Shown in pieces: positions 15,283 to 56,568 of a stretch of 64,000 nucleotides of DNA. Within the stretch, counting starts at the first letter, position 1, and each line of letters begins with the position of its first letter. The translations under genes and the position numbers were made by a program. The notes under the pieces are model-generated. The model was given only the letters and a program-made list of their open reading frames with translations, was not told where the DNA came from and did no database searches. Source of the DNA: Siphonodentalium dalli. Lineage: Eukaryota; Mollusca; Scaphopoda; Gadilida; Siphonodentaliidae. The stretch is from NCBI GenBank assembly GCA_032622095.1, contig CP136067.1, forward strand, positions 51,065,899 to 51,129,898, read 5' to 3'.

Positions 15283-16108
15283 TGCCTATATCTCAATTTG
15301 GTACAGGACTTCGGTCTTCAAAGCTAACCCAACCTTACGAGTATACAACAGCTAGTAAAGCCCACCCTACTGTCATACCAGGAGAAGGAAAATAATAATT
15401 ATACATTGCAAAATGCGAAGCCTGTGCAGTGAACTTCGTTCATACATGTTCTGAAACCATATATCTGAAACGCCTGTTTGTACATGTGATTCGAGTGTTG
15501 AAGATTCCAATAGTTAGTTCATGTATGACCACTTTTTTATATCGAAGAGAGGATTGATATTATTCGAAATTAAAGTGTAAACGGTTTTCGTCGAATCCAA
15601 ACGAAACATTTCACTACACCGGTACAAGGTATGTCCAACAACCAAACCCCATTCTCGTTAAATCCGATCATATATCCGTAACTAAAACAAAGCGTTTTTA
15701 ACAACCCTAGTCAAATAATGAACAATACTGTTCTGTCTCAGAGGTTTGTCTCTCCGTTGTATTGCGCCCACTTGTGGGTGAAATAAGCAAACATATGTGT
15801 GATCAAACTAACAATATGTTACAATAATGCGTATATAATGGTAATGGGATCTGAGAGGACTCGCAGTGCCAGCGGTATGTTTGTTTGTGGCAATATGTTA
15901 TCCGTGCTTATGTTGAGACGGAAGTATGTATACAGTTTTCGCCAGAGATTTGGTGTGACAAGCATTTATATTTCAACATGTATAATTAATTCTGATAAAC
16001 AATTCAGCTCTGACCTTATTCGATATTGGACCAACATTTTGTATAACATGTCTTGAGTGCCGTATAAGACATACATGAGTTATTGTACATGACATATAAC
16101 TGTATTGT
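15283..16108. other. No supported feature
   Basis: AT-rich unique-looking DNA. An open frame of about 85 codons at 15799-16056 has no domain that can be recognised. Confidence 0.5.
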
Positions 16109-16453
16109 CAACATATCCTCGCGCAAATACGCACATAATCGACCTGAAATGTACATAATGTGATTATTTGGTTCTGAAATAAGCAGATAATGGAGTCATA
16201 TCCATTATTTCGTATTGTGGCGCGGTCCACGGTGAAAACACATATTAAAGAGCGTACCCCTGAACAGTCGTGAATTATTTGTGTCATTATCCGCACATAA
16301 TATTCTTAGAATCGCCCGGTTATGAGTCGATAACATGACTCTCATTTTCAGCACATTATAGACTCAATATGAGGCAACTCTAAGCACATTATATACCTAA
16401 AACTAGTTCTATTATAGGCAGATAATATGCGTTTTTTTGGGAGAAAAGGCTGG
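16109..16453 (+). mobile_element. Family C element, copy 1 (about 345 bp)
   Basis: Begins CAACATATCCTCGCGCAAAT and ends with GCAGATAATATGCG and a GGGAGAAAAGGCTGG block. Internally it has CGCACATAATC, AATAAGCAGATAATGG, ACATATTAAAGAGCGTAC and several GCACATTAT words. Copies occur at 19367, 26210 (inverted), 35553, a divergent one at 23803 and a fragment at 11700. The ends are weakly inverted (CGCACATAATCGACC against GGCAGATAATATGCG), fitting a non-autonomous DNA element. No ORF is conserved between copies. Confidence 0.8.
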
Positions 16454-17398
16454 TATTGTCTATCCAGAGAGAATAACTATAACTTCTCGTTATGCATTAA
16501 GTACGGATGTTGCGATTTCTTTTGTTTATCTACATGGACATTGCTGTCTGAAATAAAGCTATATTATATAATAATTGATCAACTTCTAAATCATACTTCT
16601 AAAATATCGAGTTTGGATTACAGATAAAACTCCAACTCAAACATCGCACACTCTGTACCCCATATCCCGCGCTAATAATTTATGCCATCTTGTACATTCA
16701 ATGTATTGGTTTGAATGTAAGAGGGGCAAGGCTGCCTGTAAGTTGTAAAAAAACTGTTATTTATGTATATTTGTATATATTCTTCAGATACGTTAAAATA
16801 TGCTTAACCTCTTCGCTGCTAAATGGCGTTGGACGCCGTGGGCTAAGCTGTTGACGTTGTTGAAACTTGTTGCCATTGTCCAGCTGAAAATATAATGGGA
16901 ATATCACAAGAACCATAAAACTGACTCAGTTGAAAGGCTATCACCGTTCACAATCGTGGAACATCATATACAAATTGAAACTTCGAGATACAGTTATCCA
17001 CATGCACCAATATCTGACTTCCAGTTATGAGTAATGGCCTACTGCTAGTGTGTTGAAGTAGGTCCGTGGCTGACCATATAGCACACCACGTGCACCTTTA
17101 CGTTCGTAATAGTTACTGCTGTCATAGCAGCGGCGAGGAGGTTAAGGTAAAATCGTATAAAGGAGAAATAGCAGCTTATAAACTTTACCCACGACACGAA
17201 CCAAACTCCTTGCAGCCGTCTTCGTTATCACTGCGATAGATCACTGCCGGAAGGATGGTACTTTACGGACCGATACATCTATTTATATGTATCGTCGGAA
17301 CGATATGTAGACACCTGTTATCTTATTTTTACAAATAACTGTTTGGAATAATGGTAATTATTTTGGTATTGATAAGAACAATATGAACTGAGCCAGAT
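16454..17398. other. No supported feature
   Basis: No open frame, repeat or recognisable RNA was found in this interval. Confidence 0.45.
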
Positions 17399-17505: not shown

Positions 17506-19366
17506 AAATCCTTATCAAATGTCCTTGTGGCATTTGTATATCAGCGGAGCGATGGGCGATAACTCTGTCTGGAGTTTGAACACGAACTTGATGACTACAT
17601 TTGTATTTTATTGGATTTTTCGTTGTTCCAGTCGCTACGCCATATAACGCCGTTACCACTGTTATTGGTTCCCGAAAGTTATCACCTAGGACTAATTACA
17701 GTGTGATAGCTGTATACGAAGTTATTGGTTATAGGAGCACAGCAAATAAGATAATAAGCATCTGGGGGCATAACTGCATTTTTTTTCTCTCGTTCCGTGA
17801 GAACATTGAGATACAGAATGAAATATTTACAAAATAATTGATGATAATGATAATATATATAATATTGACAAGTCTCCCGGCAACACAAGTTTGAACATAA
17901 CTTGACATGTTTGCATATGTATATGTGCAGTGAATTTGGTATCGGACTATCATGGTACGATGTTTCTAAAGTACGAATCATGCTTGATTTATTCAAGTCG
18001 CCTTATTTCGACACCCTGGCTACAATGTATAAATCTACATGTATGATTGAATAAACCAAATAAGTTGTCCAAGTCGCCTTCTATGGATAGCGATATTAAA
18101 TTGTAACATTCATCCTTAGCAACCAGCAGTACCCAAACTACGAGGTAATTGACGTTTATATGATACGAATACCCAAACAAAATTGACCACGTTTCTTGCC
18201 ATATATGTCATTGGCTATCCCCTTTGGGTATCTGGCAGTTATACAGTGTAGCAAGACTTCAGTAGGACATTACTTCAATAGGACAATCAACTGAGTTTAG
18301 TGCAAGCCAATGTCAAAATTATTCTTAGCCATTACCATGGCGAAGAAAATCCCACGAATGAGGCATTTTGGATAGGTTGACTCAATAGTATTCAACTATT
18401 AAAGGTACACTATATCAAGACTGAGAAATGGGAGACATGGTAGGATGTCAAACTGTTTGATCCCACACTTCATTATATTAGACAGGTGTAACGTGCAACA
18501 TGTGTTGCCAGTGCCAACGGAAGTGTCCTGACTCGCACGGCCATTCCGCCTACACGTATTTTATACACGGTTAAACCGTTTAGAAGCTTTTTGTCAAAAG
18601 TGTAGAATTAGCAAATCCAATCCTCAGATCAATCGGCGAACCGATGTTTCGTGAACTTTTAGTAAATTCGTCAGAAACGGTGACCCAGCCGCTATTTGTT
18701 TTCGAAAAGGGTTTCGGACAACGACTTCCTTTAAATGGCTTAGGTCGTCTGCTTTCTGGAACCTTAATAGTTATTTTATTCTCGCAGCAGTTTTTTCCGG
18801 TATCTTTTCGCCGTTTATGTTCGAATGCAAATATATTCTATCGTGAGCAACCACTGTGTATATATGAGCGGTAAGATTAGGTTTTGATTGCAGCTAGCCA
18901 ATTAGGTATATCGATGGTTTCACTGTGGACAACTTGTCCCTACGACCAGATTAGTATTTACACGTTCAAGACAGTGAGTTTACATTGCGGGGAAAAACAA
19001 AGGCCAATATGTCCAGTTGATCTCACTGTGTGCGGTAAATTGTAAGCTAAGTCGGTCAGAGCATGCGAATAGTTTTTACCGGAACTATTCTTGTGCTCGA
19101 ACCCTTACTTAACATATCATTTGTTTCTAATTGCTAACAGGCTTCTTTACAAAGTAATACAGTCGTATCGGGTGTTTCGCGAACATTTAAACATTGGTAA
19201 ATTAATTACCTCATAGTTCTTAAATATAGGGATCATAATATGTTAAGGACGCTCCTTTCCCGTGTGTCTGTGTTTAATTACCATGCATGTATATCCGACT
19301 CGATTTAATTATGTGGTATTTATATGTATACATTTGGTGCATGCTCCGTTATTTCGTGTCATTGTG
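17506..19366. other. No supported gene
   Basis: Overlapping small frames at 17600-18000 on both strands are AT-rich and unlike any known family. Around 18005-18085 a segment (GAATAAACCAAATAAGTTGT with CAAGTCGCC) partly mirrors an upstream stretch, giving a weak inverted repeat. Nothing else stands out. Confidence 0.45.
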
Positions 19367-19731
19367 CAACACATCCTCGCGCAAATACACACATAATCGA
19401 CCTATAATACGAAATATGTACATAATGTGATTATTTGATTCTGAAATAAGCAGATAATGGACTCATACCCGTTATTTCGTTTCATGACGCGGGGCACAGT
19501 GAACACACATGTTAAAGGGCGTACACCTGAAACGTGTGCTGGTTAAATTTCATCATTGTCCACACATAATCTTCTTAGAATTGCCTCAATATGAGTCGAT
19601 ACTGTGACTAAAACGCTTTCATTTTCAGCACATTATCGACTCAAAATGAGGCGATTCTAAGCAGATTTATATACCTAAGATAAGTTATATTGTAAGCTGA
19701 TACGGTGCGGTTTTTGGTAGCACAGACTGTA
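19367..19731 (+). mobile_element. Family C element, copy 2
   Basis: Starts CAACACATCCTCGCGCAAAT and follows copy 1 along its length, including AATAAGCAGATAATGGACTC, ACATGTTAAAGGGCGTACAC (motif mutated at one base) and AGCACATTATCGACTC. The right end is more diverged (TACGGTGCGG). Confidence 0.8.
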
Positions 19732-20079
19732 TTGTGGGTTTGTTCACGATAAAATCATGATCTTTCGTCACGTCGTAATTTGACCCATACTATCACCATT
19801 TGTCGTGAATGAGCTTGGTCTCAATTAAAATTCATTTTGAAGAGATATTCATTTTTCGAATTATCGGGTCGCCATAATTATCGGAGAGGAGAATCAGAGT
19901 TTCCAAAAAAAACATGGTTTTAGCATGCGCATTTCATAAAAATAAATCTCCAATAGCCAACAATAATGGCCACCCGCCCATTAACTTGAAAACATAAAGA
20001 GCCATATCATTATTTCACGGGTCAATATATAGTTTGCCGACAATTTATTGTGCTTGATTTACTGAACTGCATGTCCTCT

Positions 20080-20866
20080 GAGGATGTATTCGAATCCATG
20101 TTCTTCTTTGTTCACAAGTAGACCACCAAGACGTGACCCGGGTGTCACGATTCGAATACCCGAAAACAGACCAGGAAATTGTTCACGCAGGTCTGGATTC
20201 TGGATTTCATATCCGAGAACACGTTATTTGTATGTTCGTGGCTTACAGTACCAGTCAGAAGAAGTGGTATATTAAACGCGCTATTTTCGCGCACAATAAC
20301 GCAATAATATTGAAATTGGAAACGCTTATAAAATAAGCGCGCCACTTGTGATATTATTGCAATATTTTGTGCTTAATATCGCAATATTTCGCTCTTAATA
20401 TTGCGACATCTTGCGCTCAAAATTGTGACTTTTAAATCAAGTTATTGCTTCTATATTGTTTATTGCATAAATAGAGACAATGTTTTAGATTTGTATATAA
20501 TTATAGTTGTAAATGCTATACATTGTAGGTACACTATATGTACATTATATACACAGTATTTATCTAATATAAGTATAACACAATCGGGTCTGTATGAAAT
20601 TTAGCGCGCTTAGAATCGCAATATTTTGCGTTCAATATCGCAATAATAAGCGCGACAGATTGTTATTATTGCGCTATAATCGCGCCTTTTTCGAAATTAA
20701 GCGCGCTCAATATCGCAATTAAGGCGCGCCTCAATATACCACTTCTTCTGACTGGTACTGTAATTGTTCTCGGGTGTTAGATTTCCCACAAGCATTTTCA
20801 CGGTATTCGGTCTGGATGGTCTACTTTTCGAGAACACAGAAGAACACGGATTCCAATGCACTCTCG
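20080..20866. mobile_element. Inverted-repeat element, about 200-bp arms, CGCAATA/GCGCGC-rich core
   Basis: GAATCCATGTTCTTCTTTGT (20093) pairs with AAGAACACGGATTCC (20841). ACAGTACCAGTCAGAAGAAG (20247) pairs with CTTCTTCTGACTGGTACTGT (20742). Between the arms, 20275-20730 holds many diverged copies of CGCAATATT, AATATTGCG, GCGCGC and TGCGCTTAATAT in both orientations. This core produces a strong local contrast of CpG-containing words inside AT-rich DNA. No transposase is present. It is a foldback-type non-autonomous element. Confidence 0.8.
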
Positions 20867-22066: not shown

Positions 22067-22114
22067 ACGGGTTACATGGTCCGGACAGACTCATTGGACG
22101 AGAAAAGCAGAGAG

Positions 22115-22261
22115 GATATCCAACGAGTAATGTTGGGATATAAGATTTTATGAAACGAGTTTGATAAATTTGATTCACAATGAGTCGTAGACGAGTTGTG
22201 AATCAAATGATTCAAACGAGTTTCATAACATCTTATATCCCAAAATAACGAGTCGAAGATC
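22115..22261. mobile_element. Family D palindromic MITE, copy 1 (147 bp)
   Basis: GATATCCAACGAGTAATGTT through GGGATATAAGATTTTATGAA pairs with its complement, ending in AACGAGTCGAAGATC. The whole element folds into one hairpin. A second copy with the same arms is at 48270-48415. Confidence 0.85.
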
Positions 22262-22619
22262 TTTTATATCACATAAAAACTGGAGCTTTATGCCATTTTA
22301 ACAAATCAAAATCTTTCTGAAAAATGCATGCAAACTGTATACCTGTACGTCGATGGGTGACACGCTTCGCAGTCGTATACGACAGTATTGCGCGCTCTGA
22401 CTGGCGTCGAAAAATATAGTCCCTCAATTTGCCTCTTTGTTTTTGTGCGTATTTTCGTTAGTGCAACGAAGTTGGAAAAGAATTGAACATTAATGCACAA
22501 AGTGTTAATTTTGCAATGTCTGGTGTTGGTCTCATGCGCGGCTTTTTGATATAATATTAATCCGCGCGGTTATTTTGATGGCGCGATGCTAAGTATCCCG
22601 CGAAGCACGCGTCCATTCG

Positions 22620-25603: not shown

Positions 25604-26209
25604 TCCACATTTTAGGTTTACTCGTTGAGTTTAATTTACAGTATATACCGTCCACGTGTTTCTAAAAGGTCGATCGTACACAAAGCTTCAGAAGGAGCAC
25701 ATGGATAATATCCTACGAATATCTCTTTGGTATCAAATTTTAATGTCCAGTTCTGTGAAACTGAATATTCTTCGAGTGTGGAATAACAGGTCACCGGCGT
25801 GGTATACTAATGACCACCCAGGATATCATGAATTAGGAAATTCGATATTAAAGCAATCACACTCCCTATATATTTCTAAAGACCTCTCGAATCTCCGGAA
25901 ATGAATGCATGTCGCGTTGGTGACATGTTGTCATGTTACGTGAATAATATATTGTTATATCTGGTTAATATGAAAGTACTATATGGTTATATACTGGATA
26001 TGGCTTATGATAAACTCTATGCATACTGTTAAATAATATTATAGCCATTCAATCTAGCTCAATATACCATGATCAACATAAACTATGTTTTGGGTTATTA
26101 ATAAATATGTTTAAAGATGTTCTTCCTAACAAGTGTTATATAATAAAACAATAGATATGAATCGAAGATTCCTCTCCGGAAACGTTTATTTCAATTGATA
26201 TTGAATTTC

Positions 26210-26575
26210 AGCCAGTTCCGCCGAAAACCCGCACATTATCTGCTTGTAATATAACTTGTTTTATGTAGATAATCTGCTTAGAATCGACTCATTTAGAGTC
26301 GATAATGTGCTGAAAGTGAGAGCGGTTTAGTCACATTATCGAACCATAATGAGGCGATTCTAAGCAGATTATGTACGGACAATGACACAACTAAGCGAAC
26401 ACATGACTTTTCAGGTTTACGCTCTTTAACATGTGATTTCACTGTGGCCCGCGCAATACAACGGAATAACGGATTTGAGTCCATTCACTCAATTTCGCTG
26501 CTTATTTCGGAATCAAATAATCACATTATGTACCTATTTCACATTATAGGTCGAATATGTGCCTATTTGCGCGAT
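26210..26575 (-). mobile_element. Family C element, copy 3 (inverted)
   Basis: Reverse complement of the copies at 16109 and 35553: CCGCACATTATCTGCTT at the left, then AGAGTCGATAATGTGCTGAA, TACGCTCTTTAACATGTG and AATCACATTATGTACC towards the right end. The short minus-strand frame inside is not conserved in the other copies. Confidence 0.8.
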
Positions 26576-27197
26576 GACTTATTGCGAATGTAGATTTGTT
26601 TGGCATAATACAAATACAAATTTATGGAGAGTTTTACGGACCAGTTTTAGAACAGAAAGAGGGATAACTCTTATCTTGTTAGAACTCTCAAGCCATCCAC
26701 ATTTCATTCCAACTAACATATTTCAACGCGAATTGCGTCCAGCTTCGTCAGAAAATAAACCACTTTATTATGCATGTATAGACAAATAATATGCAGTTAT
26801 ATATGTATCTGTAAATGATTAAGAAAACAGCTAATTTATTGTAATGAAATCGGGTTTTATAAACAAAATAATGGTGTAATTGTGGCACTGACCAAATGCA
26901 CTATATTTAAACCAGTATATTGCAACCGACAGTATGTTGTAACGCACTAGTTGTATGATGTAGAACGAATACATTATTGTGTTATTATATCTAATTATAT
27001 GACATGAGAGATTACAGGACTCCAGTTGTTTGTCATAACTATATATAGTATGTGTTACGACCATTGACCTGTTACTCAAAACTATTACATGTTATATAAC
27101 GATTATGACGCACAGCGCGTTGGTTATACAACTAGTATTATGTTACAGCAAACAATTAGTCCTTCCTGAAACACTATTAATACTGGTATAACATATA

Positions 27198-35400: not shown

Positions 35401-35552
35401 ACATAGATGAAAGTAATGGGACGGAGTCTGGATATTTATCATACTGATCGAACTCTTGTTTTTATTTATTTTTAGCTTCTAACATCGCGATTTTTTCGCT
35501 TAGTTTTCTCCCCTCTGGTCATTAATTGTAAATTTTTAGTAATCGCATTTGC
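29427..35552. other. Long stretch without supported genes; small repeats only
   Basis: Open frames up to 106 codons exist (for example 29761-29994, 30038-30337, 34155-34475) but none shows a recognisable domain. Small structures: a 13-bp-arm hairpin around GTTAGC/GCTAAC at 30524-30561; a two-copy duplication with ACACCGGTG and TTTACAATTTCAGC at 31443 and 31525; a (GA)n run at 32899-32917; poly-C runs near 33050 and 33390-33408. Confidence 0.5.
31157..31227. repeat. 71-nt hairpin
   Basis: CGACTCTGCTCGTTTTCGTG pairs with CACGAAAACGAGTCGAGTCG, with a TATAGGCCCTATA-type centre. One bulge interrupts the stem. Its size fits a microRNA precursor or a minimal foldback; nothing in the sequence decides between them. 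Confidence 0.65.
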
Positions 35553-35920
35553 CAACATATCCTCTCGCAAATACGCACATATTCCACATATGATGTGAAA
35601 TATATACATAATGTGATTATTTTATGATGAAATAAGCAGATAATGGAGTCACAGCCATTATTTCGTTTTATGGCCCGGACCATAGTGAAAACACATGTTA
35701 AAGAGCGTACACACGGAAGTCGTGGGTTGGCTTATTTGTGTCATTGTCCGCCGCACATAGTCTGCTAAGAATAACCTGATTATGAGTCGATACTATGACT
35801 AAAATGCTCTCATTTTCAGCGCATTTCGACTCAAAATTTGGCAAATCTAAGCAGATTATCTACCTAAAATTAGTTCTTTATAAGCAGATAATATGCGGGA
35901 TTTCGGGATAACAGGCTGTA
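35553..35920 (+). mobile_element. Family C element, copy 4, abutting the LINE remnant
   Basis: CAACATATCCTCTCGCAAAT through ATAAGCAGATAATATGCGGG and AACAGGCTG matches copies 1-3, including TTAAAGAGCGTACAC. Its right end falls exactly where the minus-strand LINE frame loses its coding motifs, so it truncates or interrupted that LINE. Confidence 0.8.
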
Positions 35921-36168
35921 TTAGCAGTTTTTTGCTCGGTTTTCCATTCACTGTACTGCTGTATTACATTTTCTATTGTTTCATTTACCGAATCACGATA
36001 TTCTTTGTTTTTCAGCAGTGAATCGATGAACTTCCAAAATCCTTCACCCGGTTTTATGTAAACAAGTTTTAGAGTCAAGGAGATCATCGATTGGTCAGTT
36101 CTGTATCAGGGGTTTTATTGCGACATCCTATACCCATTTTTGTACGCCATTTGCTATTTAAAATTAGT

Positions 36169-36360
36169 CCAGTCTGCCTTGTTTTAGGTTTTTTTTTTGC
36201 GGTCTCCATGTGTCATTAGCAGAATGAGGTCCCCAGGGGGTGAATTTAGTGATGCTACCCCGCATAGCGGGCTAGCATCACCAAATTCTCCCTCTGGGGA
36301 CCTCATTATGCTAATGACACATGGAGACCGCAAAAAAAAACCTAAAACAAGGCAGACTGG
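36169..36360. repeat. 192-bp palindrome containing inverted LINE host sequence in both arms
   Basis: CCAGTCTGCCTTGTTTTAGG at the left is mirrored by CCTAAAACAAGGCAGACTGG at the right. Inward the arms carry GCGGTCTCCATGTGTCATTA and GCAGAATGAGGTCCCCAG, then GATGCTACCCCGCATAGCGG at the centre. The outer 45 bp of each arm encode, on the minus strand, the LINE TWR..K/KTRQ segment, so host LINE DNA is part of the palindrome. The inner part is the palindromic element shared with 37490-37740. Confidence 0.9.
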
Positions 36361-36571
36361 ATAATGACACATGAGACCGCAAAAAAACCCTAAAAACAAG
36401 GCAGACCGCATAGCGGGCTAGCATCACCAAATTCGCCCTCTGTGACCTCATTCTGCTTACACCTCAGCAGAATTAGGTTCCCAGAGGGTGAATTTGGTGA
36501 TGCTAGCCCGCTATGCGGGGTAGCATCACTAAATTCACCCTCTGGGGACCTCATTCTGCTAATGACAGACA
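36361..36571. repeat. Second, rearranged palindromic element unit
   Basis: Begins with another copy of the LINE segment (ATAATGACACATGAGACCGC, with small deletions). It jumps to CGCATAGCGGGCTAGCATCA, and after ACCTCATTCTGCTTACACCT reads back as CAGAATTAGGTTCCCAGAGG through TGGGGACCTCATTCTGCTAA. It ends at AATGACAGACA against host LINE sequence ATGTATATCTCC. The ORFs across this region are translations of the palindrome and are not genes. Confidence 0.85.
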
Positions 36572-37489
36572 ATGTATATCTCCGTGTCTCTCGATTATTT
36601 GTTCGCCACAACCGCTTAATTTCTAATTTATCGATCAAGTAGCGAAATGTTTTGAGTGCGTTTGGATTGCTTATATGTAAATAGTTTTGGCAGTAAATTT
36701 CAGGATTACGAATAAGCTGGAAATCGCTACACATAATTATATTTGTATCTGTATCACTATCTAGGAGAAATTTCACTAGATTCAGGAAGAAAGTAGGATC
36801 ACCATTGTTCGAACCCTATACATTTACTAGGACTAATGTGTATTACTAAATTACTATTTGGGTCTAAATGAATATTTTTAAATCGAGTGTGTTGATAAAA
36901 AGTACAGCTACTCCTCTGTATGATGATTTATATGAATGAAAGAGGCACGTATACCCCATTTGTCCTCTACCGTTTTCCCATCTTGCTGGTAAAGTATTGT
37001 AGGCAGTGGCTTTCGGATGCAGTCAAAAACGTTTACTTCGATTCCCATAGGCGTTGACATTTCAATCCAATATGCCGGTTAGTGACCGGGCACTTAAATA
37101 GATCATCCTATAATTCTGAAACAAGACGGTGCGTTTTCCATATGCAGATTGCATGATATGGCGCTGACATTTTCAACAAAGAGGACGCAAAATCAATATT
37201 GACAACTCTAATATAAATGTTATCTCTGTAGAGAAATCACTTTTATTGTGCGATATGTCAGATGTGAGCATATTAATTTGTGACCGGAAGAGAAATTGAT
37301 TCAGCTTTGATGTTGCCCAAATTGCTTGGTGTGCGCATAATGGAATTAAATATATATTGTTAGATTAGTTATATATAAAGTTGTGATGGAAACATATCTC
37401 ACTATGTCGTACAACATTGATAATATGGCCATACATCACACGCAATGAAACCACCAACATGTGCGTAACAAGTGTACAGCGATAAGCAC

Positions 37490-37740
37490 AAGCCTTGAAA
37501 TAGTGTGTCTGTCATTTGCAAAATGAGGTCCCCAGAGGGTGAATTTAGTGATGCTACCCGCATAGCGGGCTAGCATCACCAAATTCACCCTCTGGGTACC
37601 TCATTCTGCTTACACCTCAGCAGAATGAGGTTCACAGAGGGTGAATTTGGTGATGCTAGCCCGCTATGCGGGGTAGCATCACTAAATTCACCCTCTGGGG
37701 ACCTCATTCTGCAAATGACAGACACACTATTTCAAGGCTT
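37490..37740. mobile_element. 251-bp doubly nested palindromic element
   Basis: AAGCCTTGAAATAGTGTGTC at 37490 is mirrored exactly by GACACACTATTTCAAGGCTT ending at 37740. The centre is the short spacer in CTGCTTACACCTCAGCAG near 37609-37626. Each half is itself a palindrome around CCCGCATAGCGGG, so the sequence can fold as one long hairpin or as two shorter ones. The inner unit is shared with 36169-36571. Confidence 0.9.
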
Positions 37741-37904
37741 GGATAAGCCTATATCTATGTTGGTAGCTGTTATCTTTCCTTCAAAGATTTGTCATAATGT
37801 ATAAAGTGAGCTCAAACTGCAGCGATCGTTTGGGACCAAGTTCGACACTATGTCTACTACATATGATATAGATAATCTGATTGAAGATAATTCACTACCT
37901 CTCA

Positions 37905-39745
37905 ATCACATGTCAGCGTTACCGAGACATGGACCACCACCGCCAGGGACATTACGAAATTGCAGTTGCTTCACATACAAGCCTATCAAAGCTTAGTATG
38001 GTATAATTGGAGTGAAGTGTTCACTGAATGTTTTGTATCGTATACGACGTATACCATGCAAGTAGTATTGTGACGTCAGACAATGACCACTGTCAGCTAC
38101 ACTCTTGTGGTGCGAGACCGTGACCACCGTCAGGGACATTAAGAAATTGCAGTTGTTCAATTACATGCATATCAAAGTTTAGTATGATATAATTCGAGTG
38201 AAGTGTTCACTGAATGTTCCGTATCGTATAGACGTAAACTATGCAAGACTCTTGTGATGCGAGACCGTGACCACCGTCAGGGACATTAAGAAATTTCAGT
38301 TGTTCAATTACATACATATCAAAGCTTAGTATGATATAATTCGAGTGAAGTGTTCACTGAATGTTCCGTATCGTATAGACGTAAACTATACAAGACTATT
38401 GTGATGCGAGACCGTGACCACCGTCAGGGACATTAAGAAATTTCAGTTGTTCAATTACATAAATATCAAAGCTTAGTCTACTATACAATTCGAGTGAAGT
38501 GTTCACTGAATGTTCCGTATCTTATAGACGTAAACTATGCAAGACTCTTGTGATACGAAACAATGACCAATGTCAGGGACATTAAGACATTGCAATTGCT
38601 TCATGATCATGCCTATCAAAGCTTAGTATGATATAATTCGAGTGAAGTGTTCACTGAATGTTCCGTATCGTATAAACGTAAACTATGCAAGACTCTTGTG
38701 ATGCGAGACCATGACCACCGTCAGGGACATTAAGAAATTGCAGTTGTTCAATTACATACATATCAAAGCTTAGTATGATATAATTCGAGTGAAGTGTTCA
38801 CTGAATGTTCCGTATCGTATAGACGTAAACTATACAAGACTATTGTGATGCGAGACCGTGACCACCGTCAGGGACATTAAGAAATTGCAGTTGTTCAATT
38901 ACATACATATCAAAGCTTAGTCTACTATATAATTCGAGTGAAGTGTTCACTGAATGTTCCGTATCGTGTAGGCGTAAACTATACAAGACTCTTGTGATGC
39001 GAGACCGTGACCACCGTCAGGGACATTAAGAAATTGCAGTTGTTCAATTACATGCCTATCAAAGCTTAGTATGATATAATTCGAGTGAAGTGTTCACTGA
39101 ATGTTCCGTATCGTATAGACGTAAACTATGCAAGACTCTTGTGATGCGAGACCATGACCACCGTCAGAGACATTAAGAAATTGCAGTTGTTCAATTACAT
39201 GCATATCAAAGCTTAGTATGATATAATTCGAGTGAAGTGTTCACTGAATGTTCCGTATCGTATAGACGTAAACTATGCAAGACTCTTGTGACGCGAGACC
39301 ATGACCACCGTCAGAGACATTAAGAAATTGCAGTTGTTCAATTACATGCATATCAAAGCTTAGTATGATATAATTCTAGTGAAGTGTTCACTGAATGTTC
39401 CGTATCGTATAGACGTAAACTATGCAACACTCTTGTGGTGCGAGACCGTGACCACCGTCAGGGACATTAAGAAATTGCAGTTGTTCAATTACATGCATAT
39501 CAAAGCTTAGTATGATATAATTCGAGTGAAGTGTTCACTGAATGTTCCGTATCGTATAGACGTAAACTATACAAGACGCTTGTGATGCGAGACCGTGACT
39601 ACCGTTAGGGACATTAAGAAATTGCAGTTGTTCAATTGCATACATATCAAAGCTTAGTATGCTGCAATTGGAGTGAAGTACTCACCGAATGGTGCGTATC
39701 GTAGTCGACGTAAGCAATGCATGTAGTCCTGTGATGCGAGACAAA
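37905..39745 (+). repeat. Satellite array, about 148-bp unit, about 12 copies
   Basis: The word GTGTTCACTGAATGTT recurs near 38018, 38199, 38348, 38497, 38646, 38791, 38940, 39088, 39237, 39384 and 39528, with a degenerate end copy near 39677. Each unit has GACCACCGTCAGGGACATTA, TTGCAGTTGTTCAATTACAT, ATCAAAGCTTAGTATGATAT and CGTATAGACGTAAACTAT. The first interval is longer by about 32 bp, and edge units are most diverged, as expected in satellites. No coding capacity. Confidence 0.95.
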
Positions 39746-42160
39746 ATTGTCTGAAGAAGATATATTGTATTGTATGTATTTAGGCCCGCTGAACAGATTG
39801 ACGTTTTGACGTCACGTGATGTAATGTAGTCTTAACTTGTTTCCGTTAGATATAATCATCAAGTTTTATCCATTATCCAACGTTTTATGTAACTAAACTT
39901 TTCGGCCCATGAAATGTTCACATATTATATAGTGATCTGAAGTTGGTCTGGAATTCAAAGTTTTAAAACCATTGCATCATACTGAACCCGCTCATTGGCT
40001 GACACATCTGAAGTTCGCGGATTAAACTTCAATAGGGCATGTCAGAGGTCAATTACTGGTTTTAGAATGAATATCAAATTTCAACATTATTGTGAGAATG
40101 CATGGGGATCTCTGCGGGTGCACATGCGCGCTACCTTCGGACCCATAACAACGTATATATTGGTGGCTTATCAGTGATAACAAAAACAAGTACCGGCCAC
40201 GGCTCACTAACTAATTTAACGATTTGTGGGAGTAGCTTGTACATGTAGATCGGATAGAAGAAAAGAACTGATTGGAAAGGGTTAACTTTGAACTTCCAAT
40301 TGCACCCGATCTGATTTGCCGAAATGTAACAACTCCGAGGAACCCCATTTGCACATCGCCTGCTTTTATGTTGAGCCCATGTACATTTATATACATCTCA
40401 TTAACCCTTTCGTGATGGAATATGCGCTGGTACAACATTAAATATCATGTGTCAGTGAATTCTCTTCTATGTGCGAGTCACACATATAGGGAGCCTCGCA
40501 TGAAAGAAAATGCACTGGCTTACAAGGTCAAGTTCAATATTTTAGGCCAAGGTATTCTCTTATATGCAAGTGTAAGACGACTGAAATTCAGACTTTGACA
40601 TACATGTGTCTTTAAATTAGATATCATTTGTTTATCACAAAATTGGGTGTTTAATAAGAAAATGTTCACAAATCTCTTAAATGTTCATTTCTAACTTTCG
40701 AATCTTAAACCCGATAATATGTATAAGTATAATGATTTGGGTCGTCATTGAGTCGAAGAACTATGTCTTTTCTAAACGTTTGGACACAGCATCTGCGTTG
40801 AGTCTGTGGAACGTAGAACTATAATCAGACCAGACTCATCCTGAATTAAACTATTATAGTGTAAATGAACATTACCGTTTTGCGAATTTGTTAAAAGGGG
40901 GATAATCCAACATCATATTTCACACAAACAATTCAAAATCAGTTTCGCACTAATTCTGTAGCATACATATTATGTTTTGTCCAGGATAATGATTAATCAT
41001 GACGGCACACGATAGGCTACTCGACTAGCATTCAGTTAGTTTAAATGTTGTTATGAATAAGCGATTGCGCCACGACTTCTGTCAGAAGACTGTTCATTCG
41101 CTGCAAAATTGTTAAGAGAGAAATTTGGCTGTGCACTGGTATTCCCGACGCGTATAAAGGAAACATGAACATGTTATGGTCATATACCACTATAATAGTG
41201 GAATACCACTATAAAAGTGGAATTAAGGATGTGCCTGACCTGATAATGTTGATGTGAAGATACTGACCCAGTATAACACAGTCTCAAGGGCATCATCCCG
41301 TGTGTCAGGTTAGTCTAAGTTCTATTGACAAGTCATTCTAGATAACCGAATTCATAACGAAATCTCAATTTATATTAGATGTCTTGATATATTGCCCGTG
41401 GCACCTTTACGACAACTTGGCTCGTCGATTTGCTGTGTACAATCACGACTTTCGATCACTATTACGCTTCTCTTTCTGAGACATTGAATTTATAGAGCGA
41501 CCATAGATTTATTGGGGGCTCTACCTGATAGGAAGACACTATAAAAATCGACTTATCGGTGTCGTAAGATACAATCGGCTGGTGGTATCGAACCATTCAC
41601 TCCGGGGACGGGTTATTTAATATCCAACTTCAGAACACCGCACGGATCCAATTAATTCCCCTATCATTCGATATTCGGTGGATGTTCTATATCGAGGATA
41701 TAGGTGTCGGTGGCTCAACAGTAAACTGTTTTCAATAACACGGAGGAAAAAATCGAGTCAATATTACTAACTTAGGGTATCCTCAGCTATATTAATTTGA
41801 TTTGTAAAACAATTTTGTGTGTTAAAACGACAGCTCATCACCGCTTTAGACTTATCAATGGTGTCCTTGATTAAAATCTAGTAATTATAGTACCTACAAG
41901 TAAGAGTACTTCCTGTTGACTGTATATGTACACCTAATAGTTTAGTTTAAACATATGTATTTGTCTCAATACATATACATGACATGACGGTGATTCACAC
42001 ACACACACACACACATATATGGGGTTTGTTACAAATGGGACCGAAGTACACATGTTGATATCACTTATTAGTATCTTCTTTCCCATAAAAACTAATTGTT
42101 TTGGTGGATTGAATGAGAATGGGACAAACGTACTCCGTTTCGATGGAAAGTCTGGCTAGT
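39746..42160. other. No supported gene; one short dispersed repeat and simple repeats
   Basis: Apart from the repeat at 40390-40620, this holds a tandem palindromic TACCACTATAATAGTGGAA doublet at 41188-41221 and an (AC)n run at 41997-42014. No coding region was recognised. Confidence 0.5.
40390..40620 (+). repeat. Dispersed repeat (TAACCCTTTCGTGATGG-type), copy 1
   Basis: AAAATGCACTGGCTTACAAG, TTTTAGGCCAAGGTATTCTC and TTATATGCAAGTGT match the reverse complement of 53858-54045 (AATGCGCTGGCTTACAAGGT, TTAGGCCAATGTTTTCTC, TTATATATGCGACGTT). Both copies have a TAACCC(T)TT block at one end. Probably a short non-autonomous element of unknown type. Confidence 0.65.
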
Positions 42161-43488
42161 AAATATCTAAAAACAATACTGCGTGTAACAGTGTTGGTGA
42201 CCTGTTCAGAAGGATACATTTAAATCACATAAAAGCGTACTGGCAACCACAGGCGCTTGGGACGTCGCCCACCTGTAGTTAGTGTAAACAGTATTTAATC
42301 TATATAATTCATAAAGTAATTACAATATAATAACAAGTTATGGTATGGAGGGGATTCGACAACAAGCTGATAGCTTGTATGCGTCGTCTCGGGTTATTTT
42401 GTGACAGAACCCACGCCGTGATTCCGCTTGATTTAATAAGTGCCGTGTGTTTCATTCAATTTGAGGTTCACAGTTGGCATCCATTTATGTTTGTCTCGCA
42501 TCAACTCACAAAGTGGGCTCGTTCTACAGGTGTGTTGTTATTAAGTTTTATGGAATAAACGGTTTAAGTGATAATAAGAGACAGAGATATAAAGTTGGTT
42601 TTAGACATATTAATATGAGATCTGCGAGATGAAAAGAGATAATAGAGTAATGTTTGAGATAGAAGAGAATTTGAAGAAATGAGGATAATCTGATATATAC
42701 AGATATAGGGGAACGTTCATTTCCTCGTGGCAGACCAAAGTTTCGTCCGATCCATCCTTGCGAATTCTGTGGAAAGATCACCCTAATCCCCTATCAAACT
42801 GGACAGTCTGGAAACTTCTCCATGGAAACGCTTACATGTCGAAATATCTCGAAAACTTAGTACTGCTTCTCAACAGGACAACTTATGCCAACAATTTAGT
42901 GTGTCATCTCTGCAACGAAGTGTACTCGAACGAAATCGACCACGCCCTGTTCGTATGCTCTTCTCCAGCCGCTCTCATCATCAGAAACTCTTTTTGGGAA
43001 GGGATTATCTCTCGTTTCGGCATACCCGAATATTTTTACCTTACGTCGTTAGCCAAAGATGACTTGGTAGCAACCCTCCTAGGAAGTTCTCTGGAAACCC
43101 TAACAGAACACATATCCCACTGCCTCAAGGAACTAGTACTATATTCTGCGAAGTTCCTGTATGTTCTCAGCACAATGATCAGGAATGGCGTATACAGCAA
43201 CCCGTGTCACGTCCATTGTAATTTTCTTCTCAACACCCACGCATGTTGTAACGACTAACTTTCATATCTATTGGACAAATCGTATTTTCCTGCAACAAAA
43301 GCTGTAGTGAACATTAAAGTGCATATACATTGTATGCTTCACTCTCGTGGTTTCCAACACCTCTCCATACTTGTACATAACGGCCCACCACACTGACCAG
43401 GGAAGCCCACTTTAATCCAACTGTAATTATATGTCATGTATATCGATCTCTCCTATCGTTGGAGGTAATAAAGATATATCTGTCTCGT
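42161..43488 (+). repeat. Tandem LINE-tail array, unit 1 (1,328 bp)
   Basis: First of three head-to-tail units. Each begins AAATATCTAAAAACAATACT and ends with GGAGGTAATAAAGATATATC-type sequence leading directly into the next unit. Units 1 and 2 differ at scattered bases only. A 72-codon frame near the start (42340-42558) is kept in units 1 and 2 and altered in unit 3. The zinc-knuckle ORF is annotated separately. Confidence 0.95.
42691..43258 (+). pseudogene. LINE ORF2 C-terminal region with zinc knuckle, unit 1
   Basis: The open frame runs about 190 codons from a stop near 42688 to 43258. It contains W..DHPNPLSNWTVWKLLHG and CHLCNEVYSNEIDHALFVC, a C-x2-C-x9-H-x4-C zinc knuckle, followed by a helical tail. 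This is the layout of the zf-RVT region that follows the polymerase in many LINE proteins. No polymerase motifs precede it within the unit, and there is no clear ATG start, so it cannot be a full transposition protein. The frame is intact in two tandem units, which is consistent with recent duplication and does not by itself show selection. Confidence 0.75.
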
Positions 43489-44815
43489 AAATATCTAAAA
43501 ACAATACTGCGTGTAACAGTGTTGGTGACATTTTCAGAAGGATACATTTAAATCACATAAAAGCGTACTGGCAACTACAGGCGCTTGGGAAGTCGCCCAC
43601 CTGTAGTTAGTGTAAACAGTATTTAATCTATATAATTCATAAAGTAATTACAATATAATAACAAGTTATGGTATGGAGGAGATTCGACAACAAGCTGATA
43701 GCTTGTATGCGTCGTCTCGGGTTATTTTGTGACCGAACCCACGCCGTGATTGCGCTTGATTTAATAAGTGCTGTGTGTTTCATTCAATTTGAGGTTCACA
43801 GTTGGCATCTATTTATTTTTGTCTCGCATCAACTCACAAAGTGGGCTCGTTCTACAGGTGTGTTGTTATTAAGTTTTATGGAATAAACTGTTTAAGTGAT
43901 AATAAGAGACAGAGATATAAAGTTGGTTTTAGACATATTAATATGAGATCAGCGGGATGAAAAGAGATAATAGAGTAATGTTTGAGATAGAAGAGAATTT
44001 GAAGATATGAGGATAATCTGATATATACAGATATAGGGGAACGTTCATTTCCTCGTGGCAGACCAAAGTTTCGTCCGATCCATCCTTGCGAATTCTGTGG
44101 AAAGATCACCCTAATCCCCTATCAAACTGGACAGTCTGGAAACGTCTCCATGGATACGCTTACATGTCGAAATATCTCGAAAACTTAGTACTGCTTCTCA
44201 ACAGGACAACTTATGCCAACAATTTAGTGTGTCATCTCTGCAACGAAGTGTACTCGAACGAAATCGACCACGCCCTGTTCGTATGCTCTTCTCCAGCCGC
44301 TCTCATCATCAGAAACTCTTTTTGGGAAGGGATTATCTCTCGTTTCGGCATACCCGAATATTTTTACATTACGTCGTTAGCCAAAGATGACTTGGTAGCA
44401 ACCCTCCTCGGAAGTTCTCTGGAAACCCTAACAGAACACACATCCCACTGCCTCAAGGAACTAGTACTATATTCTGCGAAGTTCCTGTATGTTCTCAGCA
44501 CAATGATCAGGAATGGCGTATACAGCAACCCGTGTCACGTCCATTGTAATTTTCTTCTCAACACCCACGCATGTTGTAACGACTAACTTTCATATCTATT
44601 GGACAAATCGTATTTCCTGCAACAAAAGCTGTAGTGAACATTAAAGTGCATATACATTGTATGCTTCACTCTCGTGGTTTCCAACATCTCTCCATACTTG
44701 TACATAACGGCCCACCACACTGACCAGGGAAGCCCACTTTAATCCAACTGTAATTATATGTCATGTATATCGATTTCTCCTATCGTTGGAGGTAATACAG
44801 ATATATCTGTCTCGT
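43489..44815 (+). repeat. Tandem LINE-tail array, unit 2 (1,327 bp)
   Basis: Near-identical to unit 1. Among the visible changes are GGGGATTCG to GGAGATTCG and several others. The junction with unit 1 is seamless, with no target duplication between units, which points to unequal exchange or rolling amplification more than to separate insertions. Confidence 0.95.
44019..44586 (+). pseudogene. LINE ORF2 C-terminal region with zinc knuckle, unit 2
   Basis: Same frame as in unit 1 with a few substitutions (for example KLLHGN to KRLHGY, and an Ile to Thr before the SHCLKE segment). The C-x2-C-x9-H-x4-C residues are unchanged. Same caveat: no catalytic domain and no clear start. Confidence 0.75.
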
Positions 44816-45348
44816 AAATATCTAAAAACAATACTGCGTGTAACAGTGTTGGTAACATTTTCAGAAGGATACATTTAAATCACATAAAAGCGTACTGGCA
44901 ACCACAGGCATTTGGGAAGTCGCCCACCTGTAGTTAGTGCAAACAGTATTTAATCTATATAATTCATAAAGTAATTACAATATAATAACAAGTTATGGTA
45001 TGGAGGGGATTCGACAACAAGCTGATAGCTTGTATGCGTCGTCTCGGGTTATTTTGTGACCGAACCCACGCCGTGATTGCGCTTGATTTAATAAGTGCTG
45101 TGTGTTTCATTCAATTTGAGGTTCACAGTTGGCATTCATTTATTTTTTCTCGCATCAACTCACAAAGTTCGACAGGTTTGTTGTTATTAAGTTTTATGGA
45201 ATAAACGGTTTTAATAAGAGACAGAGATATAAAGTTGGTTTTAGACATATTAATATGAGATCAGCGGGATGAAAATAGATAATAGAGTAATGTTTGAGAT
45301 AGAAGAGAATTTGAAGATATGTGGATAATCTGATATATACAGATATAG
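44816..45348 (+). repeat. Tandem LINE-tail array, unit 3 (truncated)
   Basis: Follows unit 2 to GATATATACAGATATAG, then leaves the repeat just before the point where the zinc-knuckle frame would start. It has a small deletion in the 5' frame (near 45150-45175) and another at 45210. The array therefore ends 0.53 kb into the unit. Confidence 0.9.
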
Positions 45349-47472: not shown

Positions 47473-48269
47473 ATTCAAGATATAAACGCAGATACAGCAG
47501 TATGAGTGTATACTTGGCATCGCGCCATCAAAATTACCGAGCTGATTAATATTATTTCGATGGACACACTAACGGCCCGATGGACGGAGATCATTCCTAT
47601 AGCCCCCGAAAATTATATTTTCGGGGGAAGAACATCCCCTACCACAGACCCAACATCCCAACTCTAGAATATTCACCCTTAAATCACAATTGTGCAACCG
47701 CCAAACTGTTGGAAATTACCAATCTGACACCCATTATGGTTGGCAATCTTCCAATTGATGGGCATTGAGGCCCCAAATAAGATAGGAAGTTGGAATATAT
47801 TATACATTGATCTAAACCATCAAATTACTCACTAAATAGAGTTTGGACACCAAACTAGCAGAACGATTTGCACACAGTTCGTTCTGAAATTTTAGCTGAT
47901 AATTTCAGGTATCAATTTCCCCTCTTGAAAGTTGGGGCGAGGTAATTGGGGAGTTAAATGTTAAAATAATGTTCCTCCAATTTATCAAAACTACAGCAAA
48001 TTATGCAGCAGAAATTTTCATTCTGACAATCTAGTATATTGTTAGAAACACAGGTGTTGCACTTCTAGATCCAGTTATTCGCTATGTATACTAGAATCCT
48101 AAACAAAGAACAGTTTAATTTGTACATCTGTTCGTATATATTACTGTAATTCGATGCGGAAAAATGTGCTAATTTCACTTTTCATTTTACATACATTATT
48201 CAGCTTATTTTAATGATTTTGATTTGTTAAAAAGGCATAAAGCTTCTTTTTTTTTCATGTGATATACAA
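47473..48269. other. No supported feature
   Basis: AT-rich; CCCCCGAAAATTATATTTTC with GGGGGAAG near 47600 forms a small palindrome. No gene or repeat otherwise. Confidence 0.5.
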
Positions 48270-48415
48270 GATCATCAACTTGTTATGTTGGGATATAAGA
48301 TTTTATGAAACTCGTATAATAAATTTGATTCACAACTCGTCTACGACTCGATTTGAATCAATTTATCAAACTCATTTCATAAAATAGTATATCCCAACAT
48401 AACTCGTTGGAGATC
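48270..48415. mobile_element. Family D palindromic MITE, copy 2 (146 bp)
   Basis: TTATGTTGGGATATAAGATT at the left is mirrored by ATATCCCAACATAACTCGTT at the right, ending GGAGATC. The centre is CAACTCGTCTACGACTCG. It matches 22115-22261 over its full length, including the outer GAT(C/A)TCCAACGAGT ends. Confidence 0.85.
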
Positions 48416-49236
48416 CTCCATATTCGTCGCTCTCTCGGCATAAATTCACGCCGGCCATGGGATCTATAATACCTTCACGAACATCTCCATAGAGCGTATT
48501 AGCCATAAGTAGTTAATTTTCTTGTATATTTACAGGAAGTGCGTGCACGTCATTTCCCATACCGGCGTATTAAGCAGGACGCGGTAGCATGCCATAGAAC
48601 AAAATAGTTACTGTTATGCTGCTAGTTTTCAAGTGATGAATGCGTTGTTCGAGTCAAACGTTTTCTTATATGCATACGCATCCAACAGACAGATAAGTGC
48701 GTCGACGGTATATATAGTGTATATAAATATACTACAGTATTTGTATTGGGGATGTTTAGATTGATAACACTTGTATCACCCATCAAACATCACATAATAT
48801 AGTTCTCTTTATACCCGAGGCGAGAAATTATTGTTCAATAATCAGCCAGAAATGTTCTATTTCCAAACAAAGCGAGTGCAACACAGCAATTATCAGTTGT
48901 CTGTGAGACGCGCAACGTGCCATACCAATGCGCCATCAAATGTGTAACATTTACAGTCGCTGTTTTGCCAACTTTATTAACAAACTATTGTTGAAAGATT
49001 GATGTCCAGCCACATTGTGACGAATAGTATAGTCTGGTATTTATTGACAGGCGAAGTTAGTAGTTTCAATCTAAAACCTCTATATTTTATGATATTTCTA
49101 TACGTACGGCGACGTTTGGTTTTAAACAGAGTGATTTATATGTCTATTTATACCGAATAGTGTATGTCTCATTTATCGAGATTTATATTAATCTTTCATC
49201 TGTATAAAAGTAATTCGTTTCTGTATATTTGAACGG
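48416..49236. other. No supported feature
   Basis: AT-rich, without recognisable genes or repeats. Confidence 0.5.
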
Positions 49237-49800
49237 AACTACAATGATACAATCATGTTCCGAATGTCCATTTACTCGCCACTACCCTGACGCAATACAC
49301 TTAATAATCAACTGGCTCATACGATACAATCGTGTTCCGAATGTCCATTTACTCGTCCACTACCCTGACGCAATACTCTTAATACTCAACTGGCTACAAC
49401 GATACAATCTTGTTCCGAATGTCCATTTACTCGTCCACTACCCTGACGCAATACACTTAATAATCAACTGGCTCATACTATACAATCGTGTTCCGAATGT
49501 CCATTTACTCGTCCACTACCCTGACGCAATACTCTTAATACTCAACTGGCTACAACGATACAATCTTGTTCCGAATGTCCATTTACTCGTCCACTACCCT
49601 GACGCAATACACTTAATAATCTACTGTCCATTTACTCGTCCACTACCCTGACGCAATACACTTAATAATCTACTGTCCATTTACTCGTCCACTACCCTGA
49701 CGCAATACTCTTAATACTCAACTGGCTACAACGATACAATCTTGTTCCGAATGTCCATTTACTCGTCCACTACCCTGACGCAATACACTCAATAATCTAC
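49237..49800 (+). repeat. Minisatellite, 78-bp unit alternating two variants
   Basis: TTCCGAATGTCCATTTACTC and CACTACCCTGACGCAATAC recur at 78-bp steps. Two unit types alternate: one with CACTTAATAATCAACTGGCT, the other with CTCTTAATACTCAACTGGCT, a dimeric higher-order period of 156 bp. Later units lose the ACGATACAATC part, giving 54-bp steps. Since 78 is 26 codons, a 140-codon frame stays open, but it has no signal peptide or known domain and is best seen as a product of the period. Confidence 0.95.
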
Positions 49801-56279: not shown

Positions 56280-56568
56280 TATAAGCGAGATCACTGAGTC
56301 GGCTCCATATTGGACTCATCCAACCCCAGTTCCGCAGGTTAAGTGCTACATATCACAGTTCTGGAGATTCATTCTATATATGGAACCTTTGAATATTCAT
56401 GATTCCATATATGGTATTCATGAATATTCAAAAGCTCCATATTTGGAATCATAAATATTCAAAAGTTCCATATATGGAATGCACCTCCAGAACGTTGACC
56501 TGTAGCACACCGCGGAACGGGGGCTGGATGAATCCATCATAGTCGCGACTCAGTGATCTCGGTTATTG
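56280..56568. mobile_element. 289-bp palindromic MITE
   Basis: ATAAGCGAGATCACTGAGTC at the left pairs with GACTCAGTGATCTCGGTTAT at the right. Inward, CTCATCCAACCCCAGTTCCG pairs with CGGAACGGGGGCTGGATGAA, and GTTCTGGAGATTCATTC with GCACCTCCAGAAC. The centre is a smaller repeat of CCATATATGG and GAATATTCATGA/TTC words. The fold is almost complete over the whole length. Confidence 0.9.

Follow-up and report, generated by a model that had tools for sequence, protein, structure and literature searches.

Features of the locus

The window analysed (a 64,000-nucleotide stretch of Siphonodentalium dalli contig CP136067.1) has an A+T content of 62% and is rich in repeats; searches of its whole length with Rfam (gathering threshold) and ARAGORN returned no match. 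It holds two copies of a palindromic element, the first inserted in a LINE-like host (36211-36571) and the second at 37489-37741. The features of both are listed below.

36168-36210, minus strand: host continuation WRPQKKNLKQGRLD, 43 bp present again in inverted orientation
36211-36263, plus strand: hairpin 1, first arm (a-type), left end TGTCATT with one TGTC unit fewer, placed by alignment
36264-36266, plus strand: hairpin 1, apex ATA, centre of the palindrome 36163-36365
36267-36319, plus strand: second arm, a hybrid with b-type bases at 36272 and 36282 and a-type sequence from 36299, the putative fold-back switch falling between them
36320-36361, plus strand: inverted host copy 1, template 36168-36210
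36362-36405, plus strand: second inverted round, element end TAATGACA and inverted host with about four small changes; its junction shares (C)TAAT
36406-36457, plus strand: hairpin 1, second arm proper (b-type), resuming at the apex
36458-36466, plus strand: 9-bp spacer between the hairpins, TACACCTCA, identical in the second copy
36467-36571, plus strand: hairpin 2, right end AATGACAGACA
36573-36815, minus strand: LINE-like host upstream of the insertion, decayed coding sequence (...CSDFQLI...RRYT), from an ORF and a joined frame
37489-37505, plus strand: left inverted flank of the second copy, CAAGCCTTGAAATAGTG, 17 bp, perfect, with GATAAGCA just before it
37506-37724, plus strand: element core of the second copy, 219 bp, without the LINE-like segment
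37725-37741, plus strand: right inverted flank of the second copy, CACTATTTCAAGGCTTG, 17 bp, perfect, with GATAAGCC just after it

The host reading frame

The minus-strand host reads ...NIIMCSDFQLI...RRYT before the insertion, WRPQKKNLKQGRLD after it and GFWKFIDSLLKNKEY farther along, and removing one ATG restores the frame of the empty site, in which RRYT is followed directly by WRP. An earlier note, made from the letters alone, had placed the element in a minus-strand LINE endonuclease gene between RRYT and TWR. The joining of the frame across the empty site bears out that placement; the LINE identity was recognised neither by Pfam or PDB nor among viral contigs. Pfam gave no match for host pieces of 82 and 80 amino acids and one sub-threshold, irrelevant match for the longer host frame, the PDB search with the host piece gave two matches only, both at chance level, and a search of viral contigs with the host pattern gave 13 pattern stretches and no relatives. 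Because Pfam and PDB did not recognise the host piece, "LINE endonuclease" is a putative reading, and on the motifs CSDFQLI, RRYTWR, QGRLD and GFWKF we take the stretch to be a decayed L1/Tx1-type LINE. Comparison of two host pieces with the 64-kb window gave no significant second copy.

A repeat family of about 370 bp has four copies in the window (16104-16459, 19361-19735, 26209-26585 and 35549-35922); at the settings applied, three of them contain an imperfect palindrome, and the last one adjoins the LINE-like host downstream of the insertion locus.

Normal form of the element

The element is palindromic and MITE-like, 215-219 bp long, and consists of two hairpins joined by the 9-bp spacer. 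Its form was taken from the second copy: shared ends TGTCTGTCATT...AATGACAGACA, with hairpin 1, spacer and hairpin 2 between them. The terminal inverted repeats, the lack of coding capacity and the two near-palindromic copies in the window agree with a MITE or foldback element. Among frames of at least 120 amino acids, the only one over the first copy is the host reading into the element, and there is none over the second. The two copies are 96.4% identical between 36406-36571 and 37558-37724 (167 columns). The whole second copy folds into one long hairpin (-150 kcal/mol, z -33).

The target duplication is 3-4 bp at the first copy and, depending on where the element boundary is set, none or 8 bp (7 of 8 identical) at the second. 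For the first copy, the note had proposed a 4-bp duplication of ATGT, found on both sides, and had put the end of GGTCTCCATGT at 36212; the actual end is 36211, and the flank duplicate is ambiguous between 3 bp (ATG) and 4 bp (ATGT) because one TGTC unit seems to be missing at the left end.

Three element strings sought in paper text gave no match. An exact 19-base element pattern occurred at eight loci in IMG/VR and two in GTDB genomes; these ten loci were rejected as element copies, since their alignments were at most 28 nt and their surroundings unlike a hairpin, and they are therefore ascribed to chance or to unrelated coding sequence.

Inverted host copies within the first copy

The first copy, 361 bp long, lacks one TGTC unit of the element and has 146 bp in addition to it (500 observed versus 354 reference bases). 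The extra 146 bp lie inside hairpin 1 and contain two inverted copies of the adjoining host. Host and first hairpin thereby form a single inverted repeat of 203 bp (36163-36365; 91.7% identity over 205 columns, E 4e-75) centred on ATA at 36264-36266, the inner part being the element hairpin and the outer part host DNA. The fold of 36163-36365, which is that of the post-event sequence, has an energy of -106 kcal/mol (z -26).

Inverted copy 1 (42 nt) shows no substitution against host 36168-36210 (43 nt) and a single run-length difference, A10 to A9. The second inverted copy, compared by eye, differs from the host by GG to G, a reduction of the A run to A7, CC to CCC and A4 to A5; the MAFFT layout gives four substitutions and two indels. 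The inverted repetition of the adjoining LINE DNA claimed earlier is thus confirmed, over 43 nt (46 to 47 with TAAT) and not 45. A third occurrence, reported at 36361-36408 with small deletions, does exist (36362-36405), with changes that go beyond deletions. The inverted copies are clear in the record and strongly non-random.

Modelling of template switches

The model treated the locus as a copy of its pre-event state, a reference of host, element and host, and permitted jumps in both directions. The reference was derived from the first copy itself, so that the flanks match by construction and the test bears on the insert. The best path had three jumps and was identical at penalties of 6, 8 and 12, with a cost of 45 at penalty 8. 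Forward-only jumps, without inversion, cost 123, and 100 shuffles of the 145 bases at 36264-36408 gave costs of at least 144 (mean 157). The best path runs forward to 36293, in reverse from the hairpin partner position, in reverse again from 36362, and forward from 36406.

In the first jump, placed by the model at 36293/36294, forward copying stops at reference index 172 and reverse copying starts at 115, positions symmetric about the apex base (index 144). An arm that is part b-type and part a-type would be expected of a new strand that folded onto the first arm after it had already copied some of the second. Because the hybrid is defined by just two clear b-type bases (36272 and 36282), one a-type base (36299) and an a-type end, the position of the first switch can be narrowed no further than 36283-36299. 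The TGTC unit missing from the left end is missing from both inverted copies too, and the template was therefore the left end and not hairpin 2. The second jump falls on TAAT, or on CTAAT with one C lost, common to the inverted host and the element end (inverted host GACTGGACTAATTTT, element end CTAATGACA, junction GACTGGATAATGACA). At the third junction, the return to the apex, only 1 nt is clearly shared, or the junction can be drawn, with some strain, in two steps by way of AGAC and CCGCA.

Proposed origin of the extra DNA

From the arrangement of the letters, the inverted host copies probably, though by no means certainly, arose by fold-back-primed template switching at the hairpin after the element had inserted. 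Hairpin-primed template switching, one of the two routes offered in the earlier note, is well supported by the three-jump model, the hairpin register, the hybrid arm and the word shared at one junction. The MITE-like element (two hairpins, about 219 bp) would have inserted into an old LINE-like copy. During a later replication of the locus, the growing strand would have copied host, the first arm of hairpin 1, the apex and 17-33 nt into the second arm; its 3' end would then have folded back onto its own first arm, as the hybrid arm and hairpin register indicate. Primed there, it would have produced inverted copy 1 by copying the arm outward and going on for 43 nt or slightly more into the host. 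A slip at the shared TAAT or CTAAT to the element end would have allowed the same stretch to be copied again as the second inverted copy, and a return to the hairpin apex would have let the element be completed. We infer this order of jumps from the sequence.

Against fold-back priming stand the C absent at the TAAT junction, the weak third junction and two private bases in the hybrid arm (36289 and 36309), which neither template has. The copies are also unequally diverged from the host (one change versus about four), which would not be expected from a single event unless synthesis was error-prone or the hairpin was corrected later. The changes in the second inverted copy may reflect error-prone synthesis, greater age, or hairpin-templated correction, of the kind known from inverted-repeat arms (PMC8604942), that kept copy 1 identical. 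If fold-back priming is the correct reading, the first copy is a well-preserved record of hairpin-primed switching at a transposon, in which arm-specific bases place the first switch within 17 nt.

Comparison with documented events

Hairpin-primed template switching is already documented (PMC7954356, PMC8604942, PMC13334657, PMC8277862), and the first copy, on this reading, adds a further case to a recognised class of events; since such switching is documented, the event is less exceptional than the earlier note implied. Among the matches listed, literature titles and abstract openings described no MITE with tandem inverted copies of its flank.

Short-range template switches in great ape genomes are treated with a four-point model (PMC7954356). 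Forward, reverse and forward local copying likewise accounts for the first copy (cost 45 versus 123), with segments L to 1, 2 to 3 in reverse, and 4 to R, and with a new inverted repeat as the result. Because point 2 precedes point 1 on the plus strand, switching within one strand is possible. Unlike the four-point events, the first copy needs one jump beyond the model: it has a fourth segment, the second reverse round, and the primer would have been a pre-existing transposon hairpin.

In yeast, the homogenisation of inverted-repeat arms has been ascribed to template switching: the nascent strand pairs with itself, and one arm serves as template for its partner (PMC8604942). The same self-folding and arm-templated synthesis are proposed here, whereas at the first copy synthesis would have continued beyond the arm into host DNA, for 43 nt or slightly more, and would have done so twice. 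For small inverted triplications, studied in cancer genomes and in yeast FEN1 (rad27) mutants, the proposed origin is a switch at a palindrome, by fold-back or onto the sister strand, after which synthesis goes back to its template (PMC13334657). They resemble the first copy in their size scale and in the proposed sequence of folding of a 3' end at a palindrome, backward copying and switching back. They differ in their duplicated, inverted, duplicated architecture: the first copy has one direct and two inverted occurrences of the host stretch, two tandem inverted copies standing in place of a third, direct copy of the host.

Pack-TIRs capture neighbouring DNA within terminal-inverted-repeat elements after insertion, by gap filling (PMC8277862). 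The first copy shares with them the capture of adjoining DNA (the source is the flank), microhomology ((C)TAAT at one junction) and a tiny internal gap. Its filler of about 43 nt is inverted in hairpin register and LINE-like, whereas Pack-TIR filler is non-TE by definition; the LINE-like reading of the filler comes from its motifs, and neither Pfam nor PDB recognised the host piece. In Galileo foldback-like elements the terminal inverted repeats extend, and a secondary insertion in one repeat reaches both (PMC4168063). The gain of sequence in both arms is similar, although Galileo is a P-superfamily element and its likeness to the first copy is one of description.

Alternative explanations

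Breakage or cutting of a post-insertion cruciform at the hairpin apex, with the gap filled from adjoining host by template switching as for single-copy Pack-TIRs, would account for a return point at the apex, for filler that directly adjoins the element and for the word shared at one junction. It also has a precedent in Pack-TIRs, whose fillers come from nearby, with 1-36 bp of microhomology and small internal gaps (PMC8277862). The filler is, however, inverted and was entered in exact hairpin register, both of which fold-back priming explains without a break, and no sequence feature requires one; the letters by themselves would fit either route, but we consider this one unlikely.

Less probable again is an assembly or library artefact, that is, a polymerase chimera or a mis-assembly at a strong palindrome that made inverted copies existing in the record alone. 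The palindrome is extreme and, in one reading, the copy in 36362-36405 differs from the host mainly in run lengths, as in sequencing noise. Such noise is made less likely by the two element copies and by five further duplicated pairs compared in the window, all of which differ mainly by substitutions. For the duplicated pairs, substitutions and indels numbered 24 and 2 in 1329 columns, 21 and 3 in 558, 32 and 0 in 503, and 6 and 0 and 3 and 0 in 123 columns each; for the element copies, they numbered 5 and 1 in 167. The two private substitutions in the hybrid arm and the inverted flanks that the second element copy has of its own also speak against an artefact.

Inverted flanks of the second copy

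Symmetry past the shared element is seen in both copies, over 43 nt or a little more in the first and a perfect 17 nt in the second, and the sequences are unrelated, the 17-bp inverted flanks bearing no relation to the LINE-like host. In 300000 trials with random 17-mer pairs the best match was 15, and 17 of 17 was never reached. Two other repeat families (2 and 4 copies) served as a control; an inverted self-match was present in five of the six copies and in none of the five reached more than 5 nt beyond the shared family region, a control that is weak because its families are not palindromic end to end.

These observations would suit a family that habitually extends by inverted flank copying, its hairpin priming fold-back at or after each insertion so that host DNA becomes new terminal repeats, with both copies as instances. 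We give this little credence, and slightly less to the related proposal that inverted flank duplication is part of how the palindromic family inserts or is maintained. The sample is two copies, the duplication in the first is internal to the element and not at its ends, and GATAAGCA and GATAAGCC, which agree at 7 of 8 positions (random rate 6.8e-4 for this length alone), directly border the flanks of the second, as expected if these flanks were terminal repeats within an 8-bp target duplication. The flanks of the second copy thus reflect either copying by the family or a longer element ending in CAAGCCTTGAAATAGTG with an 8-bp target duplication. The directly adjacent 7-of-8 pair favours the longer element; the first copy, in which the core alone is seated cleanly in the host reading frame, favours flank copying. 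If the family does copy its flanks repeatedly, it would offer a natural system in which to measure the growth of terminal repeats and the changes that palindromic elements make to the DNA around them.

It is highly improbable that the LINE-like stretch belongs to the element as a constant component, the element happening to sit in a LINE or to be homologous to one. Nothing was found in favour of this reading: the stretch is absent from the second copy, and therefore not a fixed part, and in the first it starts exactly at the insertion site and has the local end variant.

Other repeats in the window

An array of a 147-bp unit (about 11 copies, 38101-39742) starts 360 bp past the second element copy. 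A pair of repeats in opposite orientation, partly palindromic and 83% identical, lies at 22112-22337 and 48183-48423. A tandem duplication at 42151-45348 (period about 1328 bp, 97% identical over 1886 columns) has two units with a 189-codon open frame, which we take to resemble a LINE C-terminus; Pfam gave no significant match for this frame. An array of a 78/156-bp unit at 49239-49626 is open throughout in one frame, and a 286-bp imperfect palindrome at 56281-56566 has 31-bp tandem repeats near its centre. A perfect 31-nt inverted repeat (20243-20273 and 20733-20763, arms 459 nt apart) possibly marks the ends of another element. An unrelated 155-bp palindrome at 1828-1982, with ends TACAGTAATG...CATTACTGTA, is directly flanked by 20-nt direct repeats, GAGTCGGCAG(T/G)ACTCTTGC(G/C), and is perhaps a TA-inserting MITE between tandem units.
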